Positions 7,181-11,018 of a stretch of 59,310 nt of DNA are shown here, in pieces (position 1 is the stretch's first letter; every line of letters begins with the position of its first letter). This DNA comes from an uncultured Pseudokineococcus sp. (lineage in GTDB: Bacteria > Actinomycetota > Actinomycetes > Actinomycetales > Quadrisphaeraceae): the NCBI RefSeq assembly GCF_947495735.1, contig NZ_CANMAA010000018.1, forward strand, positions 1 to 59,310, written 5' to 3'. The translations under genes and the position numbers were made by a program. The notes below the pieces were generated by a model. It was given only the letters and a program-made list of their open reading frames with translations, was not told the DNA's origin and did no database searches.

Positions 7181-7371
7181 GAGTGGCGCGGCCCGCCCCG
7201 GCGCCCCCCGACGCCCGTCCGCCCCCGGCCGCCCGCGCGCTCGTCCGGACCCCGCCGCGCCTCGCCGCCGAGGCGCCCGCGGCCTCCTGCACGACGTCGG
7301 GGAAACCTCTGGCGCGGACCGCGGAGGCCGTCGTACGGTGCGCGGACACGAGAGAGGAGGTGGTCCTACCA

Positions 7372-7410
7372 GTGGTTGACAACAGGACGCGTGAGGTGGC
7401 TGCCCGCTAG
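7372..7410 (+). CDS. Tiny ORF (12 codons) with near-perfect Shine-Dalgarno
   Basis: The sequence 7351-7365 matches the full anti-SD complement AGAAAGGAGGTGATC at 13 of 15 positions, far stronger than any other site in the window. The first following start is GTG at 7372, encoding [12 protein letters not shown] and a TAG stop. An alternative GTG at 7360 would give 16 codons but overlaps the SD. A TACGGT box at 7334-7339 could be the -10. I do not recognise the peptide. The last codons form the 5' side of a 10-bp stem with 7507-7516, which suggests a translation-sensitive RNA rather than a functional protein. Confidence 0.4.
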
Positions 7411-7592
7411 CCGCCCGAGCACATCGGACGACGCTGCCCAGCAGTCGAGTCCGGCCGCCGACCGGGGAACAGTCCCCGGCCCGACAGAGGCGACCGGCGA
7501 GATCCAGGCAGCCACCGCAGCCCCCGGGTGCCGTGCCCGTCCAGCACGGCGCGACGTCGACGGCCCGCCGCCGACGTCGGCCCCGGGGGCTG
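7395..7592 (+). ncRNA. Candidate structured RNA (long stem plus three-way junction)
   Basis: Four perfect complementary elements are packed here. GGTGGCTGCC (7395-7404) pairs with 7507-7516 and encloses a 7-bp hairpin (7462-7468 with 7473-7479, loop ACAG). The 11-bp stem 7518-7528 with 7582-7592 encloses two hairpins: GCCGTGC (7530-7536) with 7544-7550, and CGACGTCG (7552-7559) with 7572-7579. No known RNA family was recognised; it lacks the signatures of tmRNA, SRP RNA and RNase P. The plus strand is favoured by the strong SD upstream, but the structures are strand-symmetric. Confidence 0.35.
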
Positions 7593-7624
7593 TTCCGCGC
7601 CCGGCCCCCGGCGCGCGCCCCACC

Positions 7625-7731
7625 CGCGAAGCAGACGCCTCCTTCACCACGCGGAGGCGCCACACCGCGAAGCAGACGCCTCCTTCACCACCTGGACGCC
7701 CCTCGCGGCGAAGCAGACGCCTGCTTCACGG
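7625..7731. repeat. Three tandem hairpin units with 41-bp period
   Basis: GCGAAGCAGACGCCT begins at 7626, 7667 and 7708, an exact 41-bp period, followed each time by CCTTCAC or GCTTCAC. Unit three folds perfectly (GAAGCAG, loop ACGC, CTGCTTC); units one and two have one mismatch each. The array ends 16 bp past the pdxH stop, so it could also serve as its terminator. Confidence 0.8.
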
Positions 7732-7746
7732 CAGAGGCGCGGCGGC

Positions 7747-8647: not shown

Positions 8648-11018
<2,371 letters not shown>

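Follow-up and report, generated by a model that had tools for sequence, protein, structure and literature searches.

An Ms_IGR-5 (RF02471) RNA from an uncultured Pseudokineococcus with a short open reading frame as the backbone of its fold: a candidate translation-gated small RNA

In an uncultured Pseudokineococcus sp., two minus-strand genes, one for a dtxR-type repressor (Pfam PF01325/PF02742) and one of pdxH type (PF01243), flank a region that carries on the plus strand a new member of the catalogued RNA family RF02471 (Ms_IGR-5 RNA, 7346–7598). A 12-codon ORF within this RNA pairs, from codon 5 to its stop, with four other strands. Helix P1a is formed with the 5' end of the RNA, pseudoknot PK with the loop of the 3' hairpin, P2 with the strand preceding this hairpin, and P3 with the region that follows the stop codon. 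This anatomy, with the ORF as the backbone of the fold, looks new for RF02471. A literature search did not find such a design described for the family in the parts of the literature covered, and older literature may deal with the RNA or its S. coelicolor counterpart. With belief and doubt in balance, the comparative evidence suggests that the RNA may be a stand-alone, translation-gated sRNA for which the passage of the ribosome, and not the peptide, matters. The window referred to below is the whole stretch of 59,310 nucleotides that was analysed, and all coordinates are positions within it.

Identity and distribution of the RNA

Direct reading of the gap between the two genes found all of the features that had been named in the initial annotation, on the plus strand. 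The Rfam search that the annotation had proposed matched the locus to RF02471 at 53.4 bits (covariance model, gathering cut-off 45), and this is the one match to the model in the whole host genome. Because the locus belongs to RF02471, described in Rfam as an 'Actinobacteria sRNA', the RNA itself is already known, contrary to the suggestion that it was not yet described. In M. smegmatis IGR-5 is transcribed and overlaps ncMSMEG15794c (PMC10454040), a relative is transcribed in S. lividans as SLIV_16488 (PMC8079986) and another is reported to be transcribed in S. avermitilis (PMC8780764). In both M. abscessus and M. smegmatis the homologues carry ribosomal reads, in a study where many ncRNAs were ribosomally protected without clear evidence of translation (PMC4974804). 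These reads agree with translation of the ORF and are no proof of it. As far as the available text of these four papers goes, no function, ORF or fold is stated for the RNA. The RF02471 model shares P3 and the P4/P4a hairpin with the fold found here; its printed structure is without P1a, P2 and PK, and no ORF is marked. The fold has a z-score of -3.09, with none of 200 shuffled sequences equally stable.

At E≤0.001, RF02471 matches 12 of the 13 genomes sampled from the family, 192 of 296 from the class and 70 of 396 from the phylum; the genomes over the gathering cut-off number 12, 191 and 35 respectively. The 14 control genomes gave no RF02471 match. Each listed genome has one match, with the exception of G478, which has two. 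When named genomes were scanned with an exact pattern, at least 120 loci were found, and the hosts among the 80 matches listed are mainly Streptomyces, Mycobacterium and Nocardioides. One other family of the same order (f5) has 13 of 13 listed genomes without a match and none listed with one, an apparent loss or divergence of the RNA.

Some matches are unusual. A 55.9 bit match with SD and ORF (L072:603–757) is on a contig labelled Zixibacteria; here the RNA is followed by a hairpin and a T-run, and PK is not evident. The large gene of this contig looks non-actinobacterial by eye, and the match may reflect misbinning or transfer. Four short variants (L187, L192, L193 and L196) have the ORF in another frame, a simple 3' hairpin and, by eye, no PK loop; these are a possible sub-family. 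Phage carriage was considered on the basis of one exact pattern and rejected, the three viral-contig matches (L202–L204) including two that share one stretch and none resembling this RNA outside the pattern by eye. These three, and L137, a pattern match without the RNA, were omitted from all counts. The count of 218 homologues (99 via Rfam and 119 via the pattern) also omits L186, which has no SD and is probably a false Rfam match (34.5 bits), and L184, which is beyond the search range of the script and has an ATA start by eye. The pattern demanded parts of the SD and GAGGTGRCTGC, and the finder scripts additionally demanded GAGG(T/C)G.

Shine-Dalgarno sequence and reading frame

The sequence AGAGAGGAGGTGGTC (7351–7365) is identical at 13 of 15 positions to AGAAAGGAGGTGATC, as had been claimed. 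The 16S tail used for this comparison is an assumed sequence, and its pattern was unmatched in the host draft genome. The extended SD (7351–7366, plus strand) is the complement of this tail with two G-U pairs, giving 16 contiguous pairs including G-U at -29.5 kcal/mol. This is the best anti-SD match in the window, ranking first in energy among 118,584 18-mers on both strands. Relatives also have the extended SD, part of which was required by the searches that found them.

The SD is followed by the 12-codon frame first noticed in the initial annotation, from GTG at 7372 to TAG at 7408–7410 on the plus strand. With the start sought 7–14 nt 3' of GGAGG and the stop 3–20 nt 3' of GAGGUG, an ORF of 10–15 codons was found in 216 of the 218 homologues, and in 173 of these 216 it is exactly 12 codons long. 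The start codons are ATG (98), TTG (71) and GTG (29) in 198 cases and CTG (10), ATT (4) and ATC (4) in the other 18; the stop codons are TAG (177), TGA (21) and TAA (18). Two loci that are one and the same stretch, L031 and L117, are without a standard start codon. In the four short variants the motif is read in another frame, yet a start and a TAG in the same place are kept. GAGGUG (7393–7398), inside the 5' strand of P2, resembles a second SD, and its invariance comes partly from the selection of loci, because the patterns and scripts required the motif.

Pairing accounts for much of the conservation within the ORF, and footprints do not prove translation, at least in the available part of PMC4974804. 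The RNA could thus be a purely structural sRNA in which GGAGGUG and GAGGUG are kept for contacts with RNA or the ribosome and the ORF is incidental. Yet when the free part between the SD and GGAC is shuffled, the ORF survives in only 28% of cases with all of the starts allowed and in 12% with ATG, GTG or TTG, against the 216 of 218 found. Codon 13 is TAG, TGA or TAA in 129 of 132 non-redundant RNAs, with CAG in two and a gap in one, and in both CAG rows (L123 and L128) a TAG is present one codon further on. The kept frame and stop make an incidental ORF rather improbable.

Helices of the fold

The 5' strand of P1a, CACG (7347–7350), is near the predicted 5' end of the RNA and pairs with CGUG (7390–7393), which is codon 7 and the first base of codon 8. 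This helix was assessed in 210 RNAs, 168 of them non-redundant, after removal of L072, L117, the four short variants and two cut-off rows. Four pairs are present in 129 of the 168 and at least three in 145, compared to 17% and 41% with strands swapped between RNAs. The compensated words include CACG/CGUG, CACA/UGUG, CCAG/CUGG, CUUC/GAAG, CCGA/UCGG, CCAA/UUGG and more. The pairing is absent in 23 of the 168, many of which look by eye like alignment shifts of one base.

The 3' end of the SD (7363–7366) can pair with 7385–7388 in a further helix, P1b, for which 97.5% of cells are paired in 40 RNAs, with double changes at one of four pairs; in L193 this is GGUCU-AGACC by eye. Codons 5 and 6 can pair either here or with the loop of the 3' hairpin, therefore P1b and PK are mutually exclusive. 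In PK, GGACG (7385–7389, codons 5–6) pairs with CGUCC (7538–7542) in the loop (7537–7543) of hairpin P4a (7530–7536/7544–7550). Over 132 RNAs, 94.8% of the PK cells are paired and there are double changes at two of five pairs, in 53 cells compared to 15 when shuffled. The loop covaries with codon 6, the combinations being ACG/CGUCC, ACU/AGUCC, ACA/UGUCC, AUG/CAUCC and AUU/AAUCC. PK matches of at least 6 bp are present in 47% of 36 deep RNAs and 48% of 179 others, some of these rows being outside the PK loop, and the controls are 8% and 14% with swapped strands and 13% with shuffled 3' parts. By eye PK is weak or absent in the four short variants and L072, and in L030 it survives only via a G-U pair. 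Neither P1a nor PK was part of the structure first proposed for this locus; both were added by comparison.

P2 is the perfect 10 bp stem of the initial annotation, formed as it had said by the last codons of the ORF (7395–7404, codons 8–11) with GGCAGCCACC (7507–7516). In the 132 RNAs 98.1% of the P2 cells are paired, with double changes at three of nine pairs but in only 7 cells. Among 41 deep or odd RNAs, P2 is found in 38 (32% when swapped); of 177 others, 166 have it, and here the match rule, which permits bulges, gives 62% when swapped. Deep relatives form it from other letters, such as CCGG/CCGG and CUGG/CCAG, and CCAU/AUGG in L012. The 5' helix printed in Rfam, between GGUGGU of the SD and GCUGCC, has 90.4% of its cells paired in 40 RNAs with double changes at none of six pairs, and P2 appears to explain one strand of that helix better.

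In P3, codon 12 and the first base of the stop (7405–7408) pair with 7496–7499. In 55 of 131 RNAs the pair 7405–7499 is C-G and in a further 42 it is G-C, and 88.9% of P3 cells are paired in the 132 RNAs. Between P3 and P2 is a bulge, AGATCCA (7500–7506), commonly GAAUCCCA-like by eye, which is a candidate contact site. P4 is the 11 bp stem of the 3' hairpin (7518–7528/7582–7592), with 99.4% of cells paired and double changes at 9 of 11 pairs in the 132 RNAs. It had been described as closing two hairpins. This is the case here, but by eye the second hairpin varies among the relatives; the first, with its GUCC-type loop, recurs.

Taken jointly over the 132 RNAs, P1a, PK, P2, P3 and P4 have 4129 of 4342 cells paired (95.1%, compared to 86.6% when shuffled), P1a itself having 83.0%. 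Double changes are present at 20 of the 33 pairs, in 415 cells compared to 116 when shuffled, a number reached in 0 of 200 shuffles. A set of 40 RNAs, hand-picked for diversity from 85 references, has 97.5% of cells paired and 122 cells with double changes compared to 32 when shuffled (0 of 500), and pairing falls to 32–47% when the partner strands are slid by 1–3 columns. This smaller set favours the fold because none of the rows flagged as weak are among it, therefore the count was repeated on the 132 rows, which take in six of these. The ends of the RNAs were fixed by P2/P4 complementarity (by P4 for the ends of the tree-test alignment), which favours P2 and P4, and not P1a or PK.

The tree-aware test was also done on these 132 RNAs, which are what is left of 158 after removing the cut-off rows L040 and L046, as well as L137, L072 and rows nearly identical to others. 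The eleven best column pairs are canonical in at least 77% of rows and are in P4, P4a, P1a or PK. Four pairs, all of them in P4, have E<0.05, and the pairs of P1a and PK singly have E of 0.3–7. Joint compensatory changes on the tree number 7 and 5 for pairs of PK and 6, 3 and 3 for pairs of P1a, with none in 18,642 of the 21,321 column pairs. Of the 12 column pairs with at least 5 such changes, 7 are inside the fold and 5 outside.

The covariation check on relatives that had been proposed for the locus thus found the SD, the ORF and both of the stems again in relatives, with compensatory changes. A chance fold of GC-rich sequence is opposed by the family match, the retention of the ORF against shuffles, P1a and the covariation in 132 RNAs; nothing was found in its favour and it can for practical purposes be dismissed.

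The encoded peptide

The motif EV(A/T)(A/G) is common to many of the encoded peptides, which could be taken to indicate a classical dual-function sRNA whose short peptide is itself active. Against this, changes counted on the tree in codons 2–4 number 75, 95 and 69 at the first, second and third positions, without an excess at the third. Codon 7 can be R, C, E, S, L, A or others, tracking the RNA 5' end with which it is paired and by which it is dictated. The four short variants encode unrelated peptides from the same motif, for example LIETSGGGCS rather than ...REVAAR. The peptide appears to have no sign of selection and a conserved functional peptide was not found, therefore peptide function was rejected as the main role and this explanation is considered very unlikely. 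The term 'dual-function', which had been applied to the locus, is in its usual sense unsupported because the peptide seems not to be conserved for its own sake.

Promoter, terminator and neighbouring genes

A -10-like TACGGT is present at 7334–7339 on the plus strand, with CTG in the -35 place, where most relatives have TTG. Directly 5' of the RNA, 153 of the 218 homologues have TTG with TANNNT and 195 have TANNNT alone, compared to 0 and 7 of 696 upstream control frames. Since this promoter-like pair sits at a fixed place, the transcript is inferred to start near ACAC. A scan of the window for the sigma-70 consensus found no promoter match. The window likewise yielded no poly-T terminator, and there is no T-run at P4. 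The P4 hairpin is a possible terminator, and several deep relatives have a strong hairpin 3' of P4 by eye.

The next gene on the same strand of the window starts at 8648, beyond pdxH, as the initial annotation had stated. The leader-like layout, with an ORF overlapping helices that a ribosome would decide as far as the anatomy goes, raises the case of a leader or attenuator of a downstream gene. Among the 115 loci listed, a crude gene caller, prone to shadow ORFs in such DNA, gives a first downstream ORF on the opposite strand at 66 and on the RNA's own strand at 49. The largest same-strand groups among these loci are six mycobacterial loci (L060 type) and four of L062 type. The three largest downstream families, however, pdxH-type (18), citrate-synthase-type (18) and nitrobindin-type (12), are mostly convergent. 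Of the neighbours identified within 900 nt among the matches listed, 55 of 56 are convergent (26 pdxH, 17 nitrobindin-type and 12 citrate synthase), a count biased because the queries (pdxH, citrate synthase, nitrobindin and dtxR) are genes already observed near the RNA; a further 63 of the 119 loci are without an identified neighbour. The downstream genes vary with lineage among the matches listed, and no same-strand gene recurring across lineages was found in the 115 loci, although some loci do have one. No regulated same-strand downstream gene was therefore identified among them, cis-attenuation was rejected as the main role, and a leader or attenuator is judged highly unlikely. The 'stand-alone' character proposed for the RNA is supported by these loci.

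In mycobacteria the neighbouring genes encode a class-IV aminotransferase and a protein of THAP4/nitrobindin type, and we take these genes to be Rv0812/Rv0813c; a literature search on Rv0812 with Rv0813c and sRNA found nothing. Directly downstream of the RNA, at 7624–7746, are three tandem copies of a 41 nt repeat with core GCGAAGCAGACGCCTSCTTCAC. The genome has a second array of three copies at G000:C2:202329–202432, as well as two single variants in other places. Two riboswitches are present on the minus strand of the window. The first is a c-di-AMP riboswitch (RF00379, 5781–5969, 49.6 bits) that precedes a reading frame on that strand, the product of which presumably resembles an NlpC/P60 cell-wall hydrolase, and the second is a c-di-GMP-I-GGC riboswitch (RF03167, 43181–43256, 63.5 bits).

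Proposed mechanism

As codons 5 to stop are the 5' strands of PK, P1a, P2 and P3, the RNA can adopt a closed, pseudoknotted fold when it is not translated. In this closed state the 5' end would be on codon 7, codons 5–6 on the P4a loop, codons 8–11 in P2 and the stop region in P3, which would leave the SD and the start codon inside the loop closed by P1a. It had been suggested that translation through the ORF would open the first stem. That the ORF forms the 5' strands of helices is borne out; since these helices are structural, translation should open them, an expectation from the anatomy. An initiating ribosome would have to break PK, P1a and P2 and then reach P3. This would free the strand GAAUCCCA...GCAGYCACC, including the 3' strand of P2, as well as the GUCC loop. 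GAGGUG (codons 8–9) may hold a ribosome that is terminating at the stop codon, because this motif ends 6 nt before codon 12, which would then be in the P site; 6 nt is a usual distance from an SD to the P-site codon. The activity of the RNA would report or require translation. The freed parts may have mRNAs, a protein or the ribosome as binding partners, or opening may set the lifetime of the RNA. The earlier term 'ribosome-sensing' would fit this anatomy.

The main rival to translation gating is a ribosome trap, in which the extended SD beside the pseudoknot captures 30S subunits or slow 70S initiation complexes and the ORF is rarely completed. The main role of the RNA would then be to sequester or sense ribosomes. 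The SD is the best anti-SD match of the window, non-ATG starts are present in 118 of 216 homologues, and ribosomal reads were reported in two mycobacteria (PMC4974804, in the part available). A pseudoknot just 3' of the SD and start, as entrapment would need, is evident from the covariation of PK, whose first base is 13 nt downstream of the start codon's first base. A trap alone leaves the kept stop codon and open frame unexplained, and is considered unlikely, with more weight than the other alternatives.

Translation gating itself has points against it. A structural RNA could retain an SD and a frame for other reasons, P1a and PK pairs singly do not go below E of 0.3, five of the twelve column pairs with most joint changes are outside the fold, and by the crude caller the ORF nearest downstream is a same-strand one at 49 of the 115 loci listed. 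A wider form of the translation-gated reading is offered tentatively, with doubt outweighing belief. This would be a phylum-wide class of ribosome-programmed RNA that retains its ORF for the sake of a switch and not of the peptide. The passage and parking of one ribosome would move the RNA between two forms, one closed by the pseudoknot and one open, giving a read-out in trans of translation or of free ribosomes.

Significance and comparison with known systems

An RF02471 RNA that is found in most of the sampled genomes of the class, including Streptomyces and Mycobacterium hosts, gains a concrete architecture of four helices on one ORF strand, one of them a pseudoknot. It also gains an unusual rule, in which reading is conserved and the peptide is not. 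The role of the RNA is therefore testable with start-codon, stop-codon and helix-swap alleles. It would also be worth looking for ORFs embedded in the folds of further catalogued 'non-coding' RNAs whose ribosome footprints lack an explanation. If the wider form is true, actinobacteria have in this RNA a read-out in trans of translation or of free ribosomes.

RNAIII is a dual-function sRNA, and SgrS and SR1 are named among such RNAs in the available part of a published account (PMC11133741). SgrS/SgrT, SR1/SR1P and RNAIII are likewise stand-alone RNAs with a short ORF, but they differ from the present RNA, where the peptide appears not to be under selection and the ORF itself provides the backbone of the fold. 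The RNA is also like the trp and erm leader-peptide attenuators, where a ribosome on a short ORF decides which helices form, but here no downstream gene is recurrent across lineages. Pseudoknots in some ribosomal-protein mRNAs, those of the alpha operon and rpsO, entrap ribosomes. There too the SD and start adjoin a pseudoknot that the ribosome must break, but those pseudoknots are in the mRNA of the regulated gene, unlike the stand-alone RNA described here.
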